Shown here: positions 4,454 through 62,514 of the stretch, piece by piece
How positions within the stretch are numbered: the first letter of the stretch is position 1
How the letters are laid out: every line of letters begins with the position of its first letter
Source: Streptomyces glomeratus
Lineage (GTDB): Bacteria > Actinomycetota > Actinomycetes > Streptomycetales > Streptomycetaceae
Length of the DNA stretch: 64,000 bases
Direction of reading: 5' to 3'
NCBI RefSeq assembly: GCF_021462825.1
Contig: NZ_JAKEEB010000006.1
Span: 62,001 to 126,000, forward strand
Program-made: the position numbers and the translations under genes
Notes under the pieces: model-generated
Told to the model about the DNA's origin: nothing
The model's input: the letters and a program-made list of their open reading frames with translations, nothing else
Databases searched by the model: none

Positions 4454-5149
4454 TCACGGCTCCCCCCGCAGGACGAAGCCCACCCCGCGCACGGTGTGCA
4501 CCAGCCGCTTGCCGCCGTCCGCCTCCAGCTTGCGCCGCAGATAGCTGACGAAGGTGTCGACGGCGTCGGTGCGCACATCGAAGTCGTAGCCCCACACCCG
4601 GTCCAGGAGCTGGTCGCGGGTGAGGACCAGACCGGCGTTGCGGGCGAGCACCTCCAGCAGTTCGAACTCGCGCCGGGTCAGCTCGAGGCGCCGGCCCGCC
4701 CGGTGGGCGGTGCGGGCCGCAGGGTCGATCACCAGGTCCGCCACCCGCAGAACGTCCCGGTCCACCGGCGGCCGCCGGCGCAGCAGGGCGTGCAACCGCA
4801 GGACCAGCTCCTGGAGGGCGAAGGGTTTGACGAGGTAGTCGTCGCCGCCGGCCTGGAGCCCGGCGATCCGGTCCGCCGTCTCGTCGAGCGCGGAGAGCAT
4901 GAGGACCGGCAGGTCCCGGCCGTCGCCCCGGAGCCGTGTGCACACCTCGATACCGCTCATGCCGGGCATCGACACATCGAGGACGAGTACGTCGGGCGGT
5001 GTGTCCCGGATCGCGGCCAGCGCCTCCGCGCCGCTTGCGGCGGTGCGCACACGGAAGCCGCCGAGCCGCAGCCCGCGCTCCAGTGAACGGCGGATGGCCG
5101 GATCGTCGTCGACGACCAGCACCGCGCCAGGCCGTATGCCCTCGCTCAT
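4454..5149 (-). CDS. OmpR/PhoB-family response regulator
   Basis: A 231-residue DNA-binding regulator. The receiver domain has the acidic cluster DDD (residues 14-16), phospho-acceptor Asp58 in VLVLDVSMPG, Thr/Ser in MLSALDE and the conserved Lys in VKPFALQEL. The C-terminal winged helix begins around residue 130 and contains LTRREFELLEVLARN, VLTRDQLLDRVWG and VDTFVSYLRRKLEADG, with the terminal hairpin VRGVGFVL. It lies upstream of its kinase in the usual order. Targets may include the two small exported proteins downstream, which is inference from position. Confidence 0.93.
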   Translation of the reverse strand: MSEGIRPGAVLVVDDDPAIRRSLERGLRLGGFRVRTAASGAEALAAIRDTPPDVLVLDVSMPGMSGIEVCTRLRGDGRDLPVLMLSALDETADRIAGLQAGGDDYLVKPFALQELVLRLHALLRRRPPVDRDVLRVADLVIDPAARTAHRAGRRLELTRREFELLEVLARNAGLVLTRDQLLDRVWGYDFDVRTDAVDTFVSYLRRKLEADGGKRLVHTVRGVGFVLRGEP

Positions 5150-5167
5150 CCGCCCTCCCGCTTCCGG

Positions 5168-5746
5168 CTACCGTTCGGTCAGCGTACGGTCCCCCTGCTC
5201 GTGGGCATCGGCGGCCGGGGCCTTCCTGGGAAAGAGCAGGTACGACAGCGCGATCAGACCGTAGACGCCGACCGTGCGCACGGCCACCCACTGGAAGGTG
5301 CGCAGCGCGGAGACGTCGCCGTCGTCACCGACGTACCGGATGGCGAGTTCCAGCAGCACGAGCGCCACCGCCGCCCCGAGCACCGCCCGCAGCCACAGGC
5401 GCGCCTCGTGCCGGGCGCGGGCCCGGCCGTGCCGCGGCGGTTTCGGCGGAGGCGGGCCCCCGGCCAGCCGATGGGCCGCGTGACCGTCGAGCCACCGGAT
5501 CAGGTAGGGCCCGTAGGCGACGGTGAAGCCGAGGTAGAGCGCCGCCAGCCCGTGCTCCCAGCTCGGCGTGGCACCGTTCTTCAGGTCGACCGCCGCCGCC
5601 GCGAACAGCACCAGCTCCAGCAGTGGCTCGCACAGCAGCAGTGCCATACCGGCGCGCCGCCGCTTCAGCAGGTAACGGACGGCCAGGCCCGCCGCCAGCA
5701 GCACCCAGAAGCCGGCCTCGCAGGCGACGATCAGTGCCACGATCAC
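5168..5746 (-). CDS. Polytopic membrane protein, unknown function
   Basis: A 192-residue integral membrane protein with about five to six hydrophobic segments, for example IVALIVACEAGFWVLLAAGL at the N-terminus, LLELVLFAAAAVDL, LAALYLGFTVAYGPYLIRW, LRAVLGAAVALVLLELAIRY and GVYGLIALSYLLF. A cytoplasmic Pro/Arg-rich loop lies near residues 115-130. No catalytic motif is seen. It ends 18 bases before the response-regulator start and could be transcribed with it. It is divergent from the ChiS-like kinase gene, with 152 bases of shared promoter region between them. The function is not recognised. Confidence 0.75.
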   Translation of the reverse strand: MIVALIVACEAGFWVLLAAGLAVRYLLKRRRAGMALLLCEPLLELVLFAAAAVDLKNGATPSWEHGLAALYLGFTVAYGPYLIRWLDGHAAHRLAGGPPPPKPPRHGRARARHEARLWLRAVLGAAVALVLLELAIRYVGDDGDVSALRTFQWVAVRTVGVYGLIALSYLLFPRKAPAADAHEQGDRTLTER

Positions 5747-5898
5747 GGTTCGCTCCCCTCGCTCGTCCCACCAGACTTCCGCCGCGGGACGCCCGCGGCG
5801 TCGTCGGCGGTGACGAGCTCGCGGTACATCGAAAGATGCAGTCCGGGACCCTTCCGGGGACGCACGCGGGCGGCCCGCGGGCCGTGTTGGATGGGGTC

Positions 5899-7065
5899 AT
5901 GGCCCCTCGACTCCCCCGTCCCCACCGTGACGACCTGCGCATCGCGCTGGGCGGGCTGCTCGGCGGACTGCTGCTGTGGGCCCTCGGGCTCAGCCCCCGC
6001 GGGGCACACGACCCTGTCGTGCTGTGGCCGGCGTGGTGGGTGCTGCCGGTGCCGCTCGTCGTCACGGCCGGCTGCGAACTGCTGCGCCGCACCCGGCCGA
6101 AGGCCGCCCTGCTGATCGGCACGGCCGCGCTGTGCGCCGACACGGTGACCCGGGGCAATGTGGCCACCGTCGTGATGTTCACGGACCTGATGTACGCGGC
6201 CGTCCTGTACGGCACCCCGGCCTCCGCCCGGCGTCTGCCCTGGATCACGGGGCTGCTCACGGTGATCGGCGGGGTGCTGCCCCTCGCCCTGTGGCGCGAC
6301 CCGGCGGGGCTGCTGATCGGCGTCGCTGTCGGTGTGGTGGCCCTCGCGCCGGCCGCCACCGGCTGGGTGGTGCGCGACCACCGCGACGCGGCCGAGGCCG
6401 CCCGGCTGCGCGCAGAACAGACCGCCCTGCTTGCCGAGACGGACCGCGCCCAGGCGGTCACCGCCGAACGGGCCCGGGTGGCACGGGAGTTGCACGACAT
6501 GGTCGCCAACCATCTGTCCGCGATCGCCATTCACTCCACGGCGGCCCTTTCCCTCGGCGACCCGGACACCTCCCGGGACGCGCTGGGCGTCATCCGGGAG
6601 AACAGCGTGGCGGGTCTCGCCGAGATGCGGCGGCTGATCGGGATCCTGCGCGCGGACGACGGCACACCGGCCGTGACCCCCACCCTCGACGGGCTCGGCG
6701 CCGTGGTGGAGAACGCGCGCACCAACGGACTCGACGTCACGCTCGACGCGCGGTGCGGGGAGGTGCCCGCGCCGGTGGAGCTGGCCGCGTACCGGATCGT
6801 GCAGGAGTCCTTGACCAACGCCCTCAAGCACGCCCGCCCGGGCCGCGTCACGGTGTCCCTCACCCGGCACGACGGTGTGCTGTCCGTGCGGGTGACCAGC
6901 CCCTACGGCCGTCCGGACGGGCCGCGCGCCCCGGGTTCCGGGTCCGGGCTCGTGGGGATGCGGGAGCGGGCCGTGCTGCTCGGCGGTACGTTCGACGCCG
7001 GTCCGGACGGGACCCTGTGGTCCGTGCGCGCCCGGCTTCCCCTGACCCGAGGAGAGTCCGAATGA
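5899..7065 (+). CDS. chiS: NarL-family sensor histidine kinase (ChiS-like)
   Basis: A 388-residue kinase with about five N-terminal membrane helices (residues 13-170) and almost no extracellular sensor, a short coiled coil, and the HisKA_3 box RVARELHDMVANHLSAIAI. The ATPase domain has IVQESLTNALKHARPG and GSGLVGMRERAVLLGG. The neighbouring regulator starts within its stop codon (ATGA), and a family-18 chitinase gene follows. In S. coelicolor the kinase/regulator pair directly upstream of chiC (ChiS/ChiR) controls that chitinase; the same arrangement here supports the name. The ATG at 5899 gives MAPRLPRPHRDD before the first helix, and the start is moderately certain. Confidence 0.85.
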   Translation: MAPRLPRPHRDDLRIALGGLLGGLLLWALGLSPRGAHDPVVLWPAWWVLPVPLVVTAGCELLRRTRPKAALLIGTAALCADTVTRGNVATVVMFTDLMYAAVLYGTPASARRLPWITGLLTVIGGVLPLALWRDPAGLLIGVAVGVVALAPAATGWVVRDHRDAAEAARLRAEQTALLAETDRAQAVTAERARVARELHDMVANHLSAIAIHSTAALSLGDPDTSRDALGVIRENSVAGLAEMRRLIGILRADDGTPAVTPTLDGLGAVVENARTNGLDVTLDARCGEVPAPVELAAYRIVQESLTNALKHARPGRVTVSLTRHDGVLSVRVTSPYGRPDGPRAPGSGSGLVGMRERAVLLGGTFDAGPDGTLWSVRARLPLTRGESE

Positions 7066-7703
7066 TCCGTGTGCTCGTCGCCGAGGACCAGTCCGCCGTG
7101 CGTGCCGGGCTCGTCCTCATCCTGCGCGCTGCGCCCGGCATCGAGGTGGTCGGGGAGGCGGCGGACGGCGAGGAGGCGGTGGCGCTGGCCCGGGAGCTGC
7201 GGCCGGATCTGGTCCTGATGGATGTGCAGATGCCGCGCCTGGACGGGGTGTCGGCGACCCGGCAGGTGGTCGGGGAGCAGCTCGCCGACGTCCTCGTGCT
7301 GACCACCTTCGACCTCGACGAGTATGTGTTCGGGGCGCTGCGGGCCGGGGCAGCCGGGTTTCTGCTGAAGCACGCGGAGGCCGGGGACCTGGTGGAGGCG
7401 GTCCGTACGGTGGCGCGCGGGGAGGGACTGATCGCGCCGGCCGTGACCCGGCGGCTGATCACCGCGTTCGCCGCGGGACCGGTACGGGAGCCGGAGGCCG
7501 ACCCTGCGGTTCTGGACGTCCTCACCCGCCGGGAGCGGGAGGTGCTGTCCTGCCTCGGTGAGGGGTTGTCCAACGCGGAGATCGCCGCCCGTCTGGACAT
7601 GGCGGAGGCCACCGTGAAGACCCACGTGAGCCGTCTCCTCGGAAAGCTGGGGCTGCGCAGCCGGGTCCAAGCCGCGGTGCTGGCGCAGGAGTTGAGGATC
7701 TAG
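7062..7703 (+). CDS. chiR: LuxR/NarL-family response regulator (ChiR-like)
   Basis: A 213-residue regulator. The receiver has acidic residues ED (8-9), phospho-acceptor Asp54 in LVLMDVQMPRLDG, TTFDLDEYVFGALRAGA and the conserved Lys in FLLKHAEAGDL. The C-terminal LuxR helix-turn-helix is LTRREREVLSCLGEGLSNAE followed by VKTHVSRLLGKLGLRSRVQA. The start codon overlaps the kinase stop (ATGA), with GGAG seven bases upstream. The gene ends 146 bases before the chitinase start. The role as activator of the chitinase rests on the known ChiR/chiC pair of S. coelicolor and on position. Confidence 0.9.
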   Translation: MIRVLVAEDQSAVRAGLVLILRAAPGIEVVGEAADGEEAVALARELRPDLVLMDVQMPRLDGVSATRQVVGEQLADVLVLTTFDLDEYVFGALRAGAAGFLLKHAEAGDLVEAVRTVARGEGLIAPAVTRRLITAFAAGPVREPEADPAVLDVLTRREREVLSCLGEGLSNAEIAARLDMAEATVKTHVSRLLGKLGLRSRVQAAVLAQELRI

Positions 7704-7849: not shown

Positions 7850-9688
<1,839 letters not shown>

Positions 9689-9710
9689 CCTCCACCCGCA
9701 CTCCCATCCG

Positions 9711-9743
9711 ACGAGTGAATGTGGCTAGGCCACATTCACTCGT
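9711..9743. terminator. Bidirectional hairpin between chitinase and DUF2550 gene
   Basis: A perfect 15-bp stem (ACGAGTGAATGTGGC, 9711-9725, with its complement at 9729-9743) and a 3-base loop (TAG, 9726-9728). It lies 22 bases after the chitinase stop. The minus-strand gene from the other side has its stop codon across the loop and one stem base. It can therefore end both convergent transcripts. There is no T-run, as is common for Streptomyces terminators. Confidence 0.8.
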
Positions 9744-10171
9744 TGGCCTGGCGGTGCGGCTTCCAGCCACGCCAGGAAACCGGTCAGCGCGTCTTCGCTC
9801 ATCGCCAGTTCCAGACGGATGCCCCGGTGGTGGCAGGCGAGGATCACCGCGTCGGAGAGCAGCGCCAGCTCCTCCTCGCCCTCGGGAGCACGCCGGCCCG
9901 CCACCTCGATCGCCGAGCGCTCCAGCACCCGGCGCGGGCGCGGCGCGTACGAGAAGACACGGAACCACTCGACACGGTCGCCGTTGTAGCGGGCGATGCC
10001 GTAGCCCCAGCCCTTGCCGCTGGTGTCGGGTTCCTCCGGGACGCCCCACCGCAGACTGCAGTCGAAGGTGCCGCCGGAACGCTGGATGAGGCGGCGTCTG
10101 AGGCCGAAGACGAACAGCCCCACCACCACGAGTGCCACAACCAATCCGCACGCACTCAGAGCGAGGACCAT
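9725..10171 (-). CDS. DUF2550-family single-pass membrane protein
   Basis: A 148-residue protein with one N-terminal membrane helix (MVLALSACGLVVALVVVGLFVFGLRRR) followed by a cytoplasmic domain (GTFDCSLRWGVPEEPD, WGYGIARYNGDRVEWFRVFSY, AGRRAPEGEEELALLSDAVI). This is the pattern of the actinobacterial DUF2550 family, which usually sits next to the ATP synthase operon as here. I chose ATG at 10171 because AGGAGG is 9 bases upstream; a GTG two codons earlier would be too close to it. The last codons and stop form part of the hairpin shared with the chitinase gene. The function is unknown. Confidence 0.85.
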   Translation of the reverse strand: MVLALSACGLVVALVVVGLFVFGLRRRLIQRSGGTFDCSLRWGVPEEPDTSGKGWGYGIARYNGDRVEWFRVFSYAPRPRRVLERSAIEVAGRRAPEGEEELALLSDAVILACHHRGIRLELAMSEDALTGFLAWLEAAPPGQRVNVA

Positions 10172-10227
10172 CGACACCGACCTCCTCGTCTCCTAGGTAA
10201 CGGAACGGATAAAACACCCGGATTTGC

Positions 10228-10275
10228 CTCAGCCGCGGCCGAGACCGGATGGTTCCGGTCCCAGCCGCGGCTGAG
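10228..10275 (-). terminator. Hairpin downstream of atpC
   Basis: Outer arms CTCAGCCGCGG (10228-10238) and CCGCGGCTGAG (10265-10275) enclose inner arms GACCGGA (10243-10249) and TCCGGTC (10254-10260). The long, two-part stem lies 56 bases past the atpC stop and is the likely end of the ATP synthase transcript. Confidence 0.7.
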
Positions 10276-10330
10276 TCACGTCTTCACGGGCTCCCCCACT
10301 GCCTGAACGGCCTGGGAGACGCCCCCACGG

Positions 10331-10705
10331 TCAGTGCGCCGACACCGCACGCAGTCGGACCTCCGCGCGGCGCTCGGCGGTGGAGTCACCCTCCGCCTTC
10401 GCGCGCTCGAGCTCCCGCTGCGCACGCTGGACATCGATCTCGTCCGCCAGCTCGGCGATCTCGGCCAGCAGCGACAGCTTGTTGTCCGCGAACGAGATGA
10501 AACCGCCGTGCACCGCGGCGACGACCGTTGCCCCATCACTCGTACGGATGGTCACCGGGCCCGACTCCAGCACACCGAGCAGCGGCTGGTGACCGGGCAT
10601 GACGCCGATGTCGCCGGACGTGGTGCGCGCCACGACCAGGGTGGCCTCGCCGGACCAGACCTGGCGGTCGGCGGCGACCAGCTCGACGTGCAGCTCAGCA
10701 GCCAA
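10331..10705 (-). CDS. atpC: ATP synthase F1 subunit epsilon
   Basis: A 124-residue subunit of the central stalk that couples rotor movement to the catalytic head and inhibits ATP hydrolysis. It has the expected beta-sandwich start (MAAELHVELVAADRQVWSGEATLVVARTT, with GDIGVMPGHQPLLGVLESG after it) and a C-terminal helical pair rich in Glu/Arg (ELADEIDVQRAQRELERAKAE). It is the last gene of the atp operon and is separated from atpD by 175 bases containing a strong hairpin, unlike the tightly spaced genes upstream. An SD-like AGGAG precedes the ATG. Confidence 0.97.
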   Translation of the reverse strand: MAAELHVELVAADRQVWSGEATLVVARTTSGDIGVMPGHQPLLGVLESGPVTIRTSDGATVVAAVHGGFISFADNKLSLLAEIAELADEIDVQRAQRELERAKAEGDSTAERRAEVRLRAVSAH

Positions 10706-10845
10706 GAGAGGCTCCTCGGGTCACCACCCGGCGGGCGCCGGGTGTTGGTCTGAATTCTAGTAGGCGTGAGGAGAGGGGCGGACCGCACCCCGCAGGACAA
10801 CCCGCGCGGCACTTCTCCACCCCTCTCACCAAGAGGCGGTACCCG

Positions 10846-10869
10846 TCACGGGCCCGTTCGGGCCCGTGA
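10846..10869 (-). terminator. Intercistronic hairpin between atpD and atpC
   Basis: TCACGGGCCC (10846-10855) and GGGCCCGTGA (10860-10869) form a perfect 10-bp stem with the loop GTTC, starting 12 bases after the atpD stop. It could attenuate transcription into atpC or protect the 3' end of the upstream message. Confidence 0.6.
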
Positions 10870-10880
10870 GCAGGCCACCG

Positions 10881-13234
<2,354 letters not shown>

Positions 13235-46206: not shown

Positions 46207-46793
46207 TCAGGATCGGCGTCATCGTCGGCAGCACCCGCCCAGGCCGCAACGGCCACCGGGTGGCCCAATGGGTACGGGACCTGGCAGCCGAACACGCGGG
46301 CGACGCCGCCGACTTCGAGCTCATAGACCTGGCCGACCACGCGCTGCCGCTGCTCGACGAAGCCGTCCCAGCTGCCAGGGCACCGGGCCGGCAGCGGCAC
46401 ACCCGGCGATGGGCCGAGCGGATCGGCTCCTACGACGCCTACGTCATCGTCACCCCCGAATACAACACCGCCCCGCCCGCCGCACTGACCAACGCCATCG
46501 ACTATCTCCACCAGGAGTGGGGCGGCAAGCCGGTCGCCTACGTCGGTTACGGCATCTTCGGCGCTGTCATGGCAGTGCAGAAGCTGCGCGCACAGGCCGG
46601 CGTGCTGCGGATGGCCGACATCGGGCCACAGGTGGCGCTGTCACTGCGCGAGGACTTCGTGAATTTCACCGAATTCCGGCCACGGGAGCTCCATACGGCG
46701 GAGGTGCACGGGCTGGTCGATGAGCTGCTGGCGTGGGCGCAGGCACTCGGCCCGCTCCGCACAGCTCCCCGGACCGCTCACCAGAACGCCTAG
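46203..46793 (+). CDS. NADPH-dependent FMN reductase-family flavoprotein
   Basis: A 196-residue flavodoxin-like protein. The FMN phosphate loop is GSTRPGRNGHRVA (residues 9-21), and the isoalloxazine-binding loop is VTPEYNTAPPAALTNAIDYL. Such enzymes reduce quinones, azo compounds or free FMN in the cytoplasm. It starts inside the sigma-factor stop (ATGA), completing a three-gene ECF41 operon; oxidoreductases are the usual companions of ECF41 factors. The C-terminal residues beyond the fold (about 175-196) are unstructured. Confidence 0.92.
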   Translation: MIRIGVIVGSTRPGRNGHRVAQWVRDLAAEHAGDAADFELIDLADHALPLLDEAVPAARAPGRQRHTRRWAERIGSYDAYVIVTPEYNTAPPAALTNAIDYLHQEWGGKPVAYVGYGIFGAVMAVQKLRAQAGVLRMADIGPQVALSLREDFVNFTEFRPRELHTAEVHGLVDELLAWAQALGPLRTAPRTAHQNA

Positions 46794-46818
46794 AGACCGG
46801 CGGACACGACCAGTCGTC

Positions 46819-47508
46819 ATGCGCATCACGGTCTTCGGCGCCAACGGTCCCACCGGTCGACTGCTCACGGACCGGGCACTCGCCGCCGGACACCGGGTCA
46901 CCGCGGTCACCCGGCAGCCGCACTCCTTCCCGCTGCGCCACGAGCGGCTCGGCATACTCGGCGCCGACGTGCTCGTCCGGAAGCCGTCGCCGCCGCCGTG
47001 GCAAGGCAGGACGCGGTGCTGTCGACTCTCGGGGTCCCCGCTGGGAAGGAACCCATCGGCACCTACTCGCGCGGCGTGGCCAACATCGTCGCCGCGATGA
47101 AACGGCACCGGGTACGTCGACTCACCGTCGTCAGCTCGAGCGGGGTCGACCCGCACCCGTACTCCGATGCCGGCTCCTGTGCAACCGCGTGCTTCTGCCG
47201 TGACACGGGTGCTGGGCAAGACGCTGTACGACGACATGCGGCGGATGGAAGCGCTGGTCCGGGCCGGCGATCTGGACTGGACGATCATCCGTCCGGGCGG
47301 GCTCCACCACCTGCCGTCGGTCACCGACTACACCCTCGTCGAGGGCCACGCCGACGGCAGGTTCACCGCCCGCGTGGACCTGGCCGCGAGCATGCCGGCC
47401 CTGCTCAGCGACGACCGCCACCACCGCACCACCGTCAGCGTCATCACCACCGTCGACAACCCCACTCTGCTCCAGTGGATCCGCCGCGAAGCACTCGCCA
47501 GGGGATGA
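46819..47508 (+). pseudogene. NAD(P)-binding (NmrA/SDR-like) oxidoreductase, broken by several frameshifts
   Basis: The original gene starts MRITVFGANGPTGRLLTDRA at 46819. At about 46978 one base is missing and the protein continues in another frame (EAVAAAVARQDAVLSTLGVP ... VVSSSGVDPHPYSDAG). Near 47170-47200 at least two further disruptions occur. A short piece CNRVLLP lies in a third frame before the last part (VTRVLGKTLYDDMRRMEAL ... LLQWIRREALARG). The pieces together cover one normal 230-residue NAD(P)H-binding protein. It lies just after the ECF41 operon on the same strand and may once have belonged to it. No single frame gives a working product. Confidence 0.85.
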
Positions 47509-47609: not shown

Positions 47610-48038
47610 CTACTGGCCTGCCGCGTGGACCGTCGCCACCGCGAACACGGCGGTCACCCACGTCCACAGCACGGAGAGTCCGACGTGACCCGCCGTCCGC
47701 AGCCGATGACCCCGCCACAACCGCGGTGAGAAGTAGGCGAATTCCATGACCCAGCGCAGGCCCCAGAACAGGGTCTGCCCGCAGAGCAGAACGGTCGGCA
47801 GGGGATCGCCGGTCAGGAGCTCCCGAGCGAACGCCAGCGGCAGTGCACCGAGCAGCACGCAGGTAAGGCCGATGAAGAACAGATGCGCGTAGGAAACCTG
47901 CCGGGTCAGCAGACTGGTGTTGCCAAGGTCGTCCGGCCAGCCCAGGATGCGCGGCAGCACCACGTGCAGCAGCCCCACCCCGATGAGGGCGGCACCGACC
48001 AGGCGCAACTGCCAGATGAGAGCGAGGAGGTGGGTCAT
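47610..48038 (-). CDS. Small polytopic membrane protein, last gene of five-gene operon
   Basis: A 142-residue protein with four hydrophobic helices (LRLVGAALIGVGLLHVVLP, AHLFFIGLTCVLLGALPLAF, PTVLLCGQTLFWGLRWVMEF, GHVGLSVLWTWVTAVFAVAT). A conserved-looking His lies in the first helix. Topology recalls small quinone- or lipid-associated membrane proteins, but I do not recognise a family. The ATG overlaps the methyltransferase stop (ATGA), so it is translated with the operon. Confidence 0.8.
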   Translation of the reverse strand: MTHLLALIWQLRLVGAALIGVGLLHVVLPRILGWPDDLGNTSLLTRQVSYAHLFFIGLTCVLLGALPLAFARELLTGDPLPTVLLCGQTLFWGLRWVMEFAYFSPRLWRGHRLRTAGHVGLSVLWTWVTAVFAVATVHAAGQ

Positions 48039-48781
48039 GCCGGTCCCCTGGTGAACGCGAGCGCGGTGACCAGGCCGGCGATGCGGTGCTCGGCCGCCGG
48101 ACGCAGACCGGCGTGCGCGGCCAGCCGGAGCCACTCCGCGCGGGGGAGGAAATGCCAGGCACCCGGCCCGAAGACGGCCGTATTCGGGCTGTCCCTGAGG
48201 TGTTCCACCAGGACCAGGCGCCCGCCGGGGCGCAGCACCCGGGCGCATTCCCCGAACAGCCGCTCCCTGTCCTCGGCCTGCCGCAGTTCGTGGGCGGCGA
48301 AGATCAGGAATACGGCGTCCACCCCGCTCCGGCGCACGGGAAGGGCATCCGGACGGCCGGGCAGGGCGTGCGGTGGCGGGGGTACCCGGCGCCGGGCCCG
48401 ACGCACCGAGCCCTCGGTCATCACGGCGGGGTCATAAAGGTCGACGGTGATCTGCCGGGAGGCCGGCCAGCGGGCGGCCAGCGGGGCGCTCGCCTCGTCC
48501 AGGCCGGTGCCCACCACCAAGTGCACGGACGGCGTCTGCGGCAGCAGCGTGTCCAGCCAGTCGTAGTCGTACATTTCGGACCGGTCGTAGACGAGCCAGC
48601 TCGCGACCGTGGCGGAAGCGAGCAGACCGACAGCGGCTGCTGAGCCTGCGCGGGCCATGGTGCGCAGCGGGTACGGCAGACGGCCGGACAGGGCGGCGAA
48701 GACCGCCGCGGTGGCCAGGCCGGCGGCGTACTGCGGCCAGTTGTAGGCGATCACGTCCCGCACGCCCGACCGGCGGGTCAC
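48035..48781 (-). CDS. Membrane-anchored SAM-dependent methyltransferase
   Basis: A 248-residue protein with two N-terminal hydrophobic segments (YAAGLATAAVFAALSG and SAAAVGLLASATVASWLVY, within residues 15-62). They are followed by a class I methyltransferase fold: VVGTGLDEASAPLAAR in place of the usual glycine-rich motif I, VDLYDPAVM (acidic ribose contact), AVFLIFAAHELRQAEDRERLF and RVLRPGGRLVLVEHLRDSPN. The arrangement places the active site at the inner membrane surface, consistent with a lipid or quinone substrate. GTG at 48781 overlaps the upstream gene stop (GTGA). It lies directly downstream of DUF2071 and BtaA-like genes. Confidence 0.82.
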   Translation of the reverse strand: MTRRSGVRDVIAYNWPQYAAGLATAAVFAALSGRLPYPLRTMARAGSAAAVGLLASATVASWLVYDRSEMYDYDWLDTLLPQTPSVHLVVGTGLDEASAPLAARWPASRQITVDLYDPAVMTEGSVRRARRRVPPPPHALPGRPDALPVRRSGVDAVFLIFAAHELRQAEDRERLFGECARVLRPGGRLVLVEHLRDSPNTAVFGPGAWHFLPRAEWLRLAAHAGLRPAAEHRIAGLVTALAFTRGPA

Positions 48782-49542
48782 CGCTCGCTCCCGCTCTCGG
48801 TCCGGCGCAGGCCGCGTTCCCAGCCGTACTCCACATCGGCGACGTGGAAGGCGTTGGCGAGGAGCGGCCGCGTGCCGGCGAACGGGCCGTGGTCGAAAAA
48901 GGTCAGGCGGCGCACGTCGACCGAGACAGGCTGCGGGTCCCAGTGGGCTCGGAATGCCTTGATCACGATCATCGAACGGGTCTGCGGCTCGTACTCGAAG
49001 GTGTAGGGGAGCGGGCCCGCGAAGCGCCGGGCGGCGCGCGCGTCCGCAAAAGGGCTGCTCGCGGGCAGCGGTGCAGGCGCGCTGCCGAGGTCCGCCCGCA
49101 CATGCAGATCCGCCCGGCCGTCGGCGCTGTCCACGCGGAACTCCAGCGACTCGCCCTCGGCCCGGGCCCGGATCCGGGCCAGATGGTAGTTGTAGCGGGT
49201 CAGCAAGTTGCCGCCCAGCACCATCAGCCTGCGGTCGGTGTCGCTGCGCAGGATGCGCAGTCCGCGCATGACGCGCCCGCCCGGAGTGCGGAAGCGGGTG
49301 AAGACGCGGTAACCGGTGAGCAGGTAGTCCGCCCCGAAACGGGCGGGAAGGGCCGCCGGTCGCAGGGCGCGGGTGTCCACCAGCGCGGCCGCCACGAACC
49401 CGTGCTCTCCGTATGTGTCCAGTTCCAGGCCCGGTGGGACCAGAGGGCGCAGCACCGCGGAAGGCAGCGCGTACGTCAGCACCAGCGAGTGAGCGAAGCG
49501 CGTGCGTATCGCAACGGGATGGCGCTGCAGCAGATGCCTCAC
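48778..49542 (-). CDS. DUF2071-family protein
   Basis: A 254-residue protein with the acetoacetate-decarboxylase-like beta-cone pattern of DUF2071: RFAHSLVLTYALPSAVLRPLVPPGLELD, FVAAALVDTRALRPAALPARFG, LTGYRVFTRF and DYLL before it, MRGLRILRSDTDR, and the end LTFFDHGPFAGTRPLLANAFHVADVEYGWERG. No catalytic residue assignment is secure. GTG at 49542 lies in a GTGA overlap with the BtaA-like gene. Cytoplasmic by sequence; the role in the operon is unknown. Confidence 0.83.
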   Translation of the reverse strand: MRHLLQRHPVAIRTRFAHSLVLTYALPSAVLRPLVPPGLELDTYGEHGFVAAALVDTRALRPAALPARFGADYLLTGYRVFTRFRTPGGRVMRGLRILRSDTDRRLMVLGGNLLTRYNYHLARIRARAEGESLEFRVDSADGRADLHVRADLGSAPAPLPASSPFADARAARRFAGPLPYTFEYEPQTRSMIVIKAFRAHWDPQPVSVDVRRLTFFDHGPFAGTRPLLANAFHVADVEYGWERGLRRTESGSER

Positions 49543-50462
49543 GGCTCGATCCTCCGATCCGGGGCAGCGCCCCCGAGACGCACCGCCCGTACCACACCCC
49601 ACAGCGCCGAGCGGTCCTGGGCCGCCCAGCCCGGCCCGTCCGGACCCGGCTCCCGGGCACTGCGCAGCACCACCACCCCACCGGGCCGCACCGCGTGCCG
49701 TACGGCCGTCCGCAGCCGACGGGCGAAGTCGGGGTCCGGCCCGTCCAGCACGTTCGAGAGCGTCACCGCGTCATAGCCGCCGCGCGGCGCCTGCTCCAAC
49801 GCGTTCACCACGTCGTCGCACACCAGCCGGACGCCCGGTGCCCACGGCTCCGGGGTACCCGGCGGCTCCGCGCCCGCCAGCAGCCGCCACAGCCACGGAT
49901 TGCGCGCATTGGGATGCCTGCCCACGGTCCGCTCCAGGCGCCGCCGCAGCACCTCGTCGAAACGCTTCGGTACGACACCGGCGAACGACGGGCGCAGCGC
50001 CAGCGCCAGGGCTCCGCCGGGGCGCAGCGCAACCCGCATCAGCCGGCGCAGACCCGCGGTGTCCAGCTCCTCCCGCCAGCGGCGAGCTTGCTCCACCGGA
50101 TCGTCCAGTGTCAGGAAACGGTGCAGCTCTCTCTGCCTCCACGCGGGCAGCAGCCGCGCCGCGGCGCCCCGGCCCAGGCGCATGACCGCCTCCGCCGTGC
50201 CCTCCCGTGTACCGCAGCCGGCCAGCCGCTCCCGCGCGTACGTGAGCTGTACCGGATTGACATCGACGGCCGTCACCTCGTACCCCGCCGAATGCAGGGC
50301 TGCCGCTGTGTCCCCCGCCGAGGCGATGCACAGCACCCGCGCGCCCGGCGGCGGAAAGACCGCCAGCTCGACACCCCAGTCCTCGTACATCCGCCCGAAG
50401 AGCAGGCGTGGGCCGTCGAATCCGCCGAGCAGCCGACCGCGTGCCCACGGTGTCCCGGTCAC
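49539..50462 (-). CDS. DUF3419-family protein, BtaA-like aminocarboxypropyl transferase
   Basis: A 307-residue protein of the DUF3419/BtaA type: FGRMYEDWGVELAVF, RVLCIASAGDTAAALHSAG, VTAVDVNPVQLTYARERL, and a second nucleotide-fold half ending DAVTLSNVLDGPDPDF and VRPGGVVVLRSARE. BtaA moves the 3-amino-3-carboxypropyl group of SAM onto diacylglycerol, the first step of betaine-lipid synthesis; a methyltransferase then finishes the head group. Here a methyltransferase lies two genes downstream. Whether the acceptor is diacylglycerol is inference. GTG at 50462 overlaps the DoxX-like stop (GTGA). Confidence 0.82.
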   Translation of the reverse strand: MTGTPWARGRLLGGFDGPRLLFGRMYEDWGVELAVFPPPGARVLCIASAGDTAAALHSAGYEVTAVDVNPVQLTYARERLAGCGTREGTAEAVMRLGRGAAARLLPAWRQRELHRFLTLDDPVEQARRWREELDTAGLRRLMRVALRPGGALALALRPSFAGVVPKRFDEVLRRRLERTVGRHPNARNPWLWRLLAGAEPPGTPEPWAPGVRLVCDDVVNALEQAPRGGYDAVTLSNVLDGPDPDFARRLRTAVRHAVRPGGVVVLRSAREPGPDGPGWAAQDRSALWGVVRAVRLGGAAPDRRIEP

Positions 50463-50836
50463 TCGGCCGCCGTCCAGGTCACCATCCAGATCAGCGCCAG
50501 GAAGGCCAGGTCCTGCGTCACCAGCCGTCCCGGCTCGTCGATCTGGCCGGGGCTGAAGAGCAGACCGCCCAGGTTGAACGCCACCACCAGCACGGTCTGC
50601 ACGAGCGCGGCCGAACGCGCCCGCCGCCCGCTCAGCACCCATGCGCCGATCGCGACCTCTGCCAGACCGATCCCGGCAAGCACTCCCGTCACCGCCCATC
50701 CCGGCAGGAACGGCACGTCACCCACGATCGCCCGCTGATCCGCCCGCCCCGGCCAGATCTTGCACCAGAACCCCTCGTAGAGCCAGACCAAGGCGATCGC
50801 CCACCGCGCCACCCGGACCCGCCACGTCTTCACCAC
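50459..50836 (-). CDS. DoxX-like small membrane protein, first gene of five-gene operon
   Basis: A 125-residue protein with four helices (VARWAIALVWLYEGFWCKI, GWAVTGVLAGIGLAEVAIGAWVL, ALVQTVLVVAFNLGGLLF, LVTQDLAFLALIWMVTWTA). The order and the motif WLYEGFWCKI match DoxX-like (DUF4267/DoxX_3) proteins, some of which sit beside quinone or lipid enzymes. ATG at 50836 starts the transcript; every downstream junction in the operon is a four-base overlap. The biochemical role is unknown. Confidence 0.83.
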   Translation of the reverse strand: MVKTWRVRVARWAIALVWLYEGFWCKIWPGRADQRAIVGDVPFLPGWAVTGVLAGIGLAEVAIGAWVLSGRRARSAALVQTVLVVAFNLGGLLFSPGQIDEPGRLVTQDLAFLALIWMVTWTAAE

Positions 50837-51088
50837 GGGATGATCATGCCTGCCGCACCATTCGGCGCGAGTTCCGGCCCCCCTGGTCCGGCCGCGCGGT
50901 GATCAGGTTGGCCTTCCTCACAGGGGCCCAGGTGGCTGTGGCTCGGCTTTCGCGCGGAGCCGTGGGGCCGTGATCGGCCCCCGCCGTTGGCCACATCGGG
51001 CAGGCGGGGTTGAACAGCGGGACACCGCCTGATCAGGGTTTCGCCCTTGCGCCAAGGGCACTCGGCCCGTGAGTTCGGAGGTACTGAG

Positions 51089-51262
51089 ATGAGTGTCGGA
51101 GAGAAGGCCAAGGCAAGGGCCGAACAGGTTGTCGGAAAGACCGTGCGAAAGGCGGCCCACGCGGTGCACAAGGAGAGCCTCGCGGCAAAGGGCGCCGCCC
51201 TCGAAGCTCGGGGCATGATGCGGGGCGAGAAGGAGAGGACCAAGGACTCCTTCAAGCGCTGA
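51089..51262 (+). CDS. Small CsbD-like stress protein
   Basis: A 57-residue, highly charged helical protein (MSVGEKAKARAEQVVGKTVR ... LEARGMMRGEKERTKDSFKR). It resembles CsbD/YjbJ-type general-stress proteins in size, composition and the KAKxxxGK pattern, although it is short and divergent. TCGGAGG lies seven bases before the ATG. It stands alone, divergent from the five-gene operon. The function is not established for the family. Confidence 0.7.
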   Translation: MSVGEKAKARAEQVVGKTVRKAAHAVHKESLAAKGAALEARGMMRGEKERTKDSFKR

Positions 51263-61518: not shown

Positions 61519-62514
61519 ATGGCGACCGACCTCGACACCTATGTGAAGGGTGTCCTCGACGGGAAGCGGGCCGTCATCGCGCGCGCCATCACGCTCGTCG
61601 AGTCCACCCGCCCCCAGCACCGGGCGCTGGCCCAGGAACTGCTGACGGAACTCCTCCCGCACAGCGGCCGGGCCCGGCGGATCGGCGTCAGCGGGGTGCC
61701 CGGCGTGGGCAAGTCCACGTTCATCGACGCGTTCGGCACGTTGCTGACCTCTCTCGGGCACCGGGTGGCCGTACTCGCCGTCGACCCCTCCTCCAGCCGT
61801 ACCGGCGGCTCGATCCTCGGTGACAAGACCCGCATGGAACGTCTGGCCGTGGACCCGGCGGCCTTCGTCCGCCCCTCCCCCACCGCGGGCACGCTGGGCG
61901 GAGTCGCCAAGGCGACCCGGGAGTCGATCGTGGTGATGGAGGCGGCCGGCTACGACGTGATCCTGGTGGAGACGGTCGGCGTCGGCCAGTCCGAGACCGC
62001 GGTCGCGAACATGGTCGACTCCTTCCTTCTGCTCACTTTGGCCCGCACGGGCGACCAGTTGCAGGGCATCAAGAAGGGTGTCCTGGAACTGGCCGACGTG
62101 ATCGCAGTCAACAAGGCGGACGGCCCGCACGAGCGTGACGCCCGCGCCGCCGCGCGTGAACTGGCGGGTGCACTACGGCTGATGCACGGCAAGGACGCGG
62201 TGTGGACTCCGCCTGTGCTGAGTTGCAGCGCGCGGGAGTCGACCGGACTGGACACCGTCTGGGAACGCCTCGAACAGCACCGCACGCTCCTGGACTCGAC
62301 CGGACGCCTCGTCGCCAAGCGCCGCGACCAGCAGGTCGACTGGACCTGGACCATGGTCCGCGACGAACTCCTCGGCCGCCTGCACGCCGATCCGGCGGTA
62401 CGGTCTCTCGCTCCCGTCCTCGAACAGCGGGTCCGGGAGGGGGAGCTGACGCCCACACTGGCCGCCGAGCGCATTCTGGGCGCGCTCGGGAGCTCCGAGA
62501 CGGACATGTCCTGA
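61519..62514 (+). CDS. meaB: Methylmalonyl-CoA mutase-associated GTPase MeaB
   Basis: A 331-residue G3E-family GTPase that loads adenosylcobalamin into the mutase and protects it from inactivation. The P-loop is GVPGVGKSTFIDAFG (about residues 56-70). Other motifs are VDPSSSRTGGSILGDKTRM, ETVGVGQSE (Walker B/switch), and VNKADGP for guanine recognition. It lies 5 bases downstream of mutB, completing the mutAB-meaB operon. Some databases call this family ArgK, a historical misnomer. Confidence 0.96.
   Translation: MATDLDTYVKGVLDGKRAVIARAITLVESTRPQHRALAQELLTELLPHSGRARRIGVSGVPGVGKSTFIDAFGTLLTSLGHRVAVLAVDPSSSRTGGSILGDKTRMERLAVDPAAFVRPSPTAGTLGGVAKATRESIVVMEAAGYDVILVETVGVGQSETAVANMVDSFLLLTLARTGDQLQGIKKGVLELADVIAVNKADGPHERDARAAARELAGALRLMHGKDAVWTPPVLSCSARESTGLDTVWERLEQHRTLLDSTGRLVAKRRDQQVDWTWTMVRDELLGRLHADPAVRSLAPVLEQRVREGELTPTLAAERILGALGSSETDMS

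Follow-up and report, generated by a model that had tools for sequence, protein, structure and literature searches.

The subject of this analysis is a five-gene operon of the actinobacterium Streptomyces glomeratus (assembly GCF_021462825.1, contig NZ_JAKEEB010000006.1). The stretch of DNA analysed, here called the window, is 64,000 nucleotides long (positions 62,001 to 126,000 of the contig), and positions are those of the window unless another locus is named. The operon occupies 47610-50836 of the minus strand and comprises five open reading frames (ORFs), P1 to P5, joined by four 4-base overlaps that read, in the order of transcription, GTGA, GTGA, GTGA and ATGA. An initial annotation, made from the sequence alone, had described five genes joined by ATGA/GTGA overlaps, and all four junctions were read exactly as such. 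The genes, with lengths in amino acids (aa), are as follows:

50459..50836, minus strand: P1, first gene, DoxX_3-like small membrane protein, 125 aa (Pfam DoxX_3, E 1.2e-15)
49539..50462, minus strand: P2, DUF3419/BtaA-family protein, 307 aa, probable S-adenosylmethionine (SAM)-dependent 3-amino-3-carboxypropyl transferase (Pfam DUF3419, E 5.3e-14)
48778..49542, minus strand: P3, DUF2071 protein, 254 aa (Pfam DUF2071, E 3.6e-15)
48035..48781, minus strand: P4, class I methyltransferase-fold protein, 248 aa, with two predicted N-terminal helices (Methyltransf_11, E 3.8e-10)
47610..48038, minus strand: P5, small hydrophobic protein of no known family, 142 aa (hydropathy and conservation)

The Pfam matches of P1 to DoxX_3 (PF13781; 58.3 bits, cut-off 25), P2 to DUF3419 (PF11899; 52.6 bits, curated cut-off 28.2), P3 to DUF2071 (PF09844; 56.6 bits, cut-off 27) and P4 to Methyltransf_11 (40.7 bits, cut-off 21.2) agree with the families to which the initial annotation had assigned these proteins. 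Two further P2 proteins score 64.0 and 57.6 bits against DUF3419, also above the cut-off. P5 has no Pfam match over any cut-off, none of P1-P5 matched an NCBIfam model above a cut-off, and a profile search of the genome that contains the window found no DUF3419 match besides P2.

The five-gene arrangement is conserved far beyond chance, and the operon is made up of two separable modules, P1-P2 (module A) and P3-P4-P5 (module B). The loci on which this is based were collected by scanning species genomes with two P2 peptide patterns, which returned 50 loci from 71 pattern matches and covers those relatives of P2 that retain the patterns. Thirty-two of the loci are actinobacterial (Streptomyces, Kitasatospora, Streptacidiphilus, Streptantibioticus, Nocardiopsis, Glycomyces and Fodinicola) and 18 are from other bacteria, 17 of the latter being metagenome-assembled genomes (MAGs); cultured carriers among the scanned loci include Streptomyces spiralis, Kitasatospora paracochleata and Bryocella elongata. 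Genes were called with a home-made gene finder, filtered profiles and ORFs anchored by tblastn; the gene finder miscalls some GC-rich loci (antisense calls, e.g. L077, L107, L108 and L125, loci being designated L and genomes G), and the reference lists were drawn up without L059, L083, L084 and L032.

All of P1-P5 were detected in each of the 32 actinobacterial loci, in the order P1-P2-P3-P4-P5 in 31 of them, which is the outcome there of the gene-neighbourhood survey suggested with the initial annotation. Exact 4-base overlaps were found at P1-P2 in 27 of these loci, at P2-P3 in 27, at P3-P4 in 22 and at P4-P5 in 29, and the P3-P4 junction has a gap of 47-152 bases in seven. P3-P4 gaps of 47-233 bases occur in some lineages (L032, 13691-13925; L041, L050-L053, L056 and L086), with most other junctions coupled; two loci (L084 of Kitasatospora sp. 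GAS204B, 9659-11361, and L083) have the five-gene unit with broken or overlapping frames, apparently in decay. When about 10 kb on either side of the window's operon was compared with the loci of 13 relatives, blastn at 1e-10 gave no match, and the tblastx matches listed were scattered short segments, the best being 31 residues just after P5 (L039). Thus, the five genes form a unit and their surroundings do not. In the 37 of 51 loci displayed, where the neighbouring families are mostly unidentified, the five genes share no further neighbour family from one genus to another.

The unit is rare. Of 101 genomes of the genus, four contain full-length P2, one of them being the window's own; among 396 genomes drawn from the phylum, only the window's own does. 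The P2 profile matched 3 of 149 genomes (one match partial) and 2 of 151 in samples from two other phyla; thus, P2 is rare there too. Besides the window's own, no relative of P5 was found by profile in 296 genomes of the phylum sample, nor one of P4 in 178 genomes of the class, and no P2 was found in phage records. A plasmid of Streptomyces sp. Caat 7-52 has all five genes. The labels of the P2 tree span seven phyla: Actinomycetota, Acidobacteriota, Chloroflexota, Myxococcota, Verrucomicrobiota, Elusimicrobiota and Pseudomonadota.

In the scanned loci, P2 is always accompanied by P1. The two genes are adjacent in 32 of 32 actinobacterial loci and, with the P1 profile, in 18 of 18 others, P1 being convergent on the opposite strand just downstream in one of these (L070). 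With tblastn, P1 was upstream of P2 in 16 of the 18 and overlapped it in 14 of those. In the 101 genomes of the genus, the P1 profile matched only the four genomes with full-length P2 and one with a remnant (G089), and the motif W.Y.G.WCK is invariant in 21 of 21 aligned P1 sequences. In the remnant (L037, 7669-8432), P1 is divided over two frames and only about the first 45 residues of P2 are left; no P3-P5 were found in the surrounding 16 kb.

Outside the Actinomycetota, module A usually stands by itself. With clean profiles on both strands, no P4 methyltransferase gene was found near P2 in 16 of 18 loci, of which L069 and L070 retain less than 1 kb downstream, leaving 14 that are firm. Such conserved neighbourhoods without the methyltransferase had been named in the initial annotation as what would refute its betaine-lipid interpretation, and they weaken it. 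P3 and P4 were both present in the remaining two loci, L067 and L080, which are Chloroflexota, and P5 in one of them; a weak P4 match in L073 (1.2e-6) is to a distant minus-strand gene. Two more loci came from phylum samples: L124, from the sample for the phylum of the L067 genome, has all five genes, and L123, from that for the phylum of the Bryocella genome (Acidobacteriota), has P2-P3-P4-P5 on a contig that ends at P2. Upstream of P1-P2 in six of the 18 loci is an SRPBCC-like gene, the Pfam Polyketide_cyc2 match of which is weak (E 0.0014, below the cut-off). A UbiA prenyltransferase gene lies 10 bases downstream in L081, and a gene read by eye as squalene/phytoene-synthase-like is divergent in L066; these are a hint of a lipid or isoprenoid setting.

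Module B also occurs without module A. The P4 profile matched five of the 101 genomes of the genus, namely the four with P2 and G038, in which no P1 or P2 match was found by profile and in which P3-P4-P5 lie on a chromosome-size contig behind an ArsR-like gene (the regulator identified by eye). The linear plasmids of Streptomyces yangpuensis and S. lavendulae (pSA3239) carry genes annotated as an ArsR/SmtB regulator, DUF2071, a methyltransferase domain and a hypothetical protein, and only one of six plasmid records with P4 has P2. In a joint tree of P3 and P4, three loci with module B only form one group (support 100/99) inside the five-gene actinobacterial rows; by this nesting, a single loss of P1-P2 is the most likely origin of the module-B-only loci.

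The initial annotation had called P2 BtaA-like, and P2 proved to be a full-length remote homologue of BtaA: profile comparison (hhalign, 99.1%) covers residues 20-296, and a sequence alignment of the two matches the landmarks MYED/WED, the SAM motif, N..W, LSN.LDG/LLDAQDW and the terminal DRS..WG/YG. However, 274 P2 columns align to 370 columns of BtaA, so that about 96 BtaA positions, seen as a gap in the alignment, are missing from P2, which is mostly 283-347 aa long compared with 393-432 aa for the BtaA rows compared. In a tree of 30 of the 52 P2 rows collected and nine of 19 other BtaA-type rows (L112 was left out), all 30 P2 rows form their own group (support 100/99), apart from the nine BtaA-type rows and three DUF3419 rows linked to haem oxygenase; the program warns of long branches in this tree, and around one of its rows, labelled BtaA_L107, the search of the adjoining stretch gave no BtaB-like gene. 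Thus, P2 falls outside the clade of BtaB-paired BtaA proteins and has neither the full length nor the middle region of BtaA.

The model of P2 (predicted local distance difference test, pLDDT, 89.6; predicted template modelling score, pTM, 0.88) has a Rossmann core with the strands typical of the class I SAM fold and a helical insertion between strands 2 and 3 (residues 89-196). It therefore forms the SAM fold, and the failure of the SAM site to form, which the initial annotation had held to be damaging, was not seen. SAM methyltransferases and related SAM enzymes account for nearly all of the 50 matches listed from the Protein Data Bank (PDB) (Z 12.8-14.3, root-mean-square deviation 2.4-4.0 over 133-169 residues, about half of the model); that no aminocarboxypropyl transferase stood out among these 50 is not evidence. 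Foldseek gave no match to the model at E <0.001, and a PDB sequence search with P2 gave only weak matches to other SAM proteins or unrelated ones. In the P2 structure alignment, made up of the window's protein and those of 35 of the 50 loci (36 sequences), five residues (A47, S48, A49, G50 and D67) do not vary, and C45 and T52 hardly do. Judged by sequence and model, P2 is likely to be a SAM-dependent aminocarboxypropyl transferase and probably keeps the chemistry of BtaA. Because P2 is a full-length BtaA homologue and models as a SAM fold, the SAM-derived head group proposed by the initial annotation is a reasonable expectation, but its reasoning from BtaA plus a methyltransferase is not supported.

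In the papers on betaine lipids, of which parts were available, BtaA converts diacylglycerol and SAM to diacylglyceryl-homoserine and BtaB trimethylates the product (PMC3972451, PMC10685587). A BtaB profile gave no HMMER match at E 10 to the P4 of the window or to those of other loci, and profile-profile comparison (hhalign, 78%) aligned the common core only; the profile was built from nine rows named by their position after BtaA, and includes L106, so that the match to L106 is by construction. The model of P4 (pLDDT 92.3; Z 15.4-18.0 for the 50 structural matches listed) supports the methyltransferase of the initial annotation at the level of the fold, but the glycine-rich motif I is altered: in an alignment of the window's P4 with those of 19 loci, GLD is invariant in all 20 members and nearly always followed by E, in place of an acidic residue and GxGxG, and GLD is also found in the module-B-only loci and two further loci. 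The motif II aspartate is kept, and the motif EH.R...N..GPGA.HF.PR after strand 5 is strongly conserved. Thus, a second methylation in the sense of BtaB is unsupported by P4; it may methylate something else. The membrane anchor that had been ascribed to P4 agrees with the two predicted N-terminal helices, but their hydropathy in the window's protein is moderate (averages over 19 residues reach at best 1.12 and 1.58, short of the customary 1.6); the same helices of a Chloroflexota homologue are clearly hydrophobic (3.27 and 2.59).

An acetoacetate-decarboxylase-like fold in which the Schiff-base lysine is not conserved has been assigned to the DUF2071 family, according to the part of the report available (PMC4520260). 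P3 is probably a binding or carrier protein, a view slightly strengthened by the SRPBCC gene in some module-A-only loci. A PDB sequence search found no relative of DUF2071, and in the open-access literature no paper was found that ties DUF2071 to SAM enzymes. P5 has hydrophobic segments at about residues 3-34, 48-74 and 119-139, and the protein is conserved in 15 aligned sequences.

Other DUF3419 genes have other neighbours. In 24 stretches containing other DUF3419/BtaA genes (22 distinct places, most of 4.1 kb), no P1, P3, P4 or P5 was found; as a control, BtaA genes followed by a methyltransferase gene, several of them overlapping, were recovered from Pseudomonadota. Among the genomes of 23 of the 50 loci, P2 was the only DUF3419 gene found in 20, and a second was present in G492, G497 and G512. 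The last of these, a Lysobacteraceae MAG with P1-P2, has a BtaA gene (196.9 bits) and, immediately after it in the position of BtaB, a methyltransferase gene, an arrangement consistent with a separate product for P2, although a MAG may mix organisms. Within the genus, a strong BtaA match (345 bits) with a BtaB-like frame beside it was observed in genome G849 (L125, frames 4789-6375 and 4812-7115, plus strand); the genus therefore seems to have canonical betaine-lipid genes. DUF3419 genes of another kind adjoin a haem-oxygenase-like gene in a Mycobacterium riyadhense plasmid (L033, 7470-9203), in G247 (L038, about 8000-9300) and in G810 (L126, 4629-6406); that gene is annotated as an iron-containing redox enzyme in L033 and was recognised by eye in L038 and L126, and in L126 ligase- and amidase-like genes come after the pair. 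These genes possibly belong to a natural-product pathway that starts from SAM.

Taking these observations together, we tentatively favour, at a little under an even chance, a reading in which P1-P2 carry out aminocarboxypropyl transfer to a hydrophobic acceptor and P3-P4-P5 tailor a lipid-like molecule. P2, as a shortened enzyme of the BtaA family, would move the 3-amino-3-carboxypropyl (homoseryl) group of SAM to a hydrophobic acceptor in or at the membrane, and P1 would be its membrane subunit, which may make up for the roughly 96 positions missing from P2. The lack of a large region of BtaA together with a constant membrane partner points to an acceptor that is different or differently presented. 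P3 (of a decarboxylase-like family), P4 (with its altered SAM loop) and P5 (a membrane protein) would act on the same kind of lipid-like molecule, either preparing or modifying it, and the SRPBCC gene, resembling those of lipid carriers, beside P1-P2 in several module-A-only bacteria hints at a hydrophobic cargo. A bolder form of this proposal, which is possible but on balance doubtful, sees in P1-P2 an undescribed membrane aminocarboxypropyl transferase of two subunits, present in at least seven phyla of bacteria. Its product would be a lipid class of the homoseryl-ether type, or another derived from SAM, that is distinct from diacylglyceryl-trimethylhomoserine (DGTS); the Actinomycetota, Chloroflexota and Acidobacteriota would have coupled the transferase to a second, separable module for lipid tailoring, whose SAM-fold enzyme is non-canonical.

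Several points weigh against this proposal. SAM enzymes with the fold of P2 also methylate or do neither, and P1 could serve something other than the activity of P2. The UbiA and squalene-synthase neighbours are single cases, and a BtaA structure with which the acceptor site could be compared was not found by PDB sequence search. Since P2 is the sole DUF3419 gene in 20 of the 23 genomes, it could still replace BtaA there. Upstream of P1, a search for PHO boxes and a sigma-B-like promoter found neither; in a scan of 32 upstream regions with a PHO-box consensus and no chance control, the best two-unit match had 3-6 mismatches in 14, at differing positions, and the missing site, although counted here, neither helps nor excludes a lipid role.

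The most familiar alternative is the ordinary betaine-lipid route, with P2 as an actinobacterial BtaA acting on diacylglycerol, P4 as the N-methyltransferase and DGTS as the product. P2 being a BtaA homologue and mostly the only one found in its genome, the methyltransferase fold of P4 in the same operon and the reality of overlapping BtaA and methyltransferase genes in Pseudomonadota all speak for it; however, P4 has neither a match to the BtaB profile nor the GCGTG motif, 16 of the 18 non-actinobacterial loci show no P4 near P2, P2 belongs to a separate and shorter clade, and the Lysobacteraceae MAG with P1-P2, contamination of which is possible, has BtaA and a methyltransferase in the BtaB position as well. 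We regard this route as improbable. Rather less so, though still unlikely, is the addition by P2 of a SAM-derived group to a small or specialised metabolite (a quinone, aromatic compound, polyketide or peptide), with the membrane proteins serving transport or anchoring in an accessory pathway. The rare and patchy occurrence of P2 (four of 101 genomes of the genus, with one copy on a plasmid), the biosynthetic-looking settings in which other DUF3419 proteins adjoin a haem-oxygenase-like gene and the natural-product enzymes among the structural matches of P4 would suit such a pathway, but no further gene family recurs across genera in the loci displayed, and the membrane proteins P1 and P5, the predicted N-terminal helices of P4 and the SRPBCC and DUF2071 partners fit a hydrophobic ligand.

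It is also conceivable, if with low probability, that P2 and P4 bind SAM without transferring a group to a lipid, for example in a SAM-dependent stress or redox function with the DoxX-type protein. The association of DoxX-family proteins with redox functions, the altered motif I of every aligned P4 and the presence of RdmB, which is titled a hydroxylase, among the structural matches of P4 speak for this; but P2 retains the landmark motifs of BtaA, and P4, in the manner of active enzymes, the motif II aspartate and the strongly conserved motif that follows strand 5. A function in anti-phage defence was considered and rejected, PADLOC having given only weak matches of P2 and P4 to mad2.

Around the operon, a few further features were observed. 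Just 5′ of the P1 start, at 50840-50850, the sequence GGCATGATCAT is common to several close Streptomyces relatives, among which the remaining DNA upstream of P1 differs; it could be the -10 region of a leaderless transcript or an operator. Upstream of the operon, a divergent small CsbD-like gene lies at 51089-51262 on the plus strand, the longer frame of which (51047-51262) matches CsbD weakly (17.6 bits, below the cut-off of 40). On the other side, at 46720-47508 of the plus strand, an NAD(P)H-binding-protein-like reading extends by eye over three overlapping frames, as if frameshifted.

These considerations bear on how such genes are named. A public plasmid record labels P2 as a BtaA family protein, a label that would prompt the prediction of betaine lipids in Streptomyces and its relatives, and the neighbourhoods argue against this shortcut. 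If the product is indeed a new SAM-derived lipid, it would account for a whole clade of DUF3419 and provide a biochemical setting for DoxX_3 and DUF2071. No description of this operon was found in the open-access literature searched, including the parts of PMC10491745, PMC3972451, PMC10685587 and PMC4520260 that were available.

Among the known systems for comparison, P3 exceeds the cut-off of DUF2071, a family with a fold like that of acetoacetate decarboxylase, but differs from that enzyme in that the family is reported, in the portion of the paper available, to be without the decarboxylase lysine (PMC4520260). The haem-oxygenase-linked DUF3419 proteins are distant relatives of P2 that do not form one group, and differ in having other neighbours and no P1, P3, P4 or P5 in the stretches examined. 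With BtaB, the SAM:diacylglyceryl-homoserine N-methyltransferase, P4 shares the general class I methyltransferase fold only; it has GLDE instead of GCGTG in motif I, has N-terminal helices, and occurs also in loci with no DUF3419 gene beside it. P1 is a member of DoxX_3 by its score, but belongs to a subfamily with W.Y.G.WCK which, in the 101 genomes of the genus, occurs only beside P2 or its remnant. P2 and BtaA, the SAM:diacylglycerol 3-amino-3-carboxypropyl transferase, share full-length remote homology, common motifs and a SAM-type Rossmann fold, whereas P2 is shorter by the missing columns, forms its own clade and has as its constant companion a DoxX-like gene instead of BtaB.

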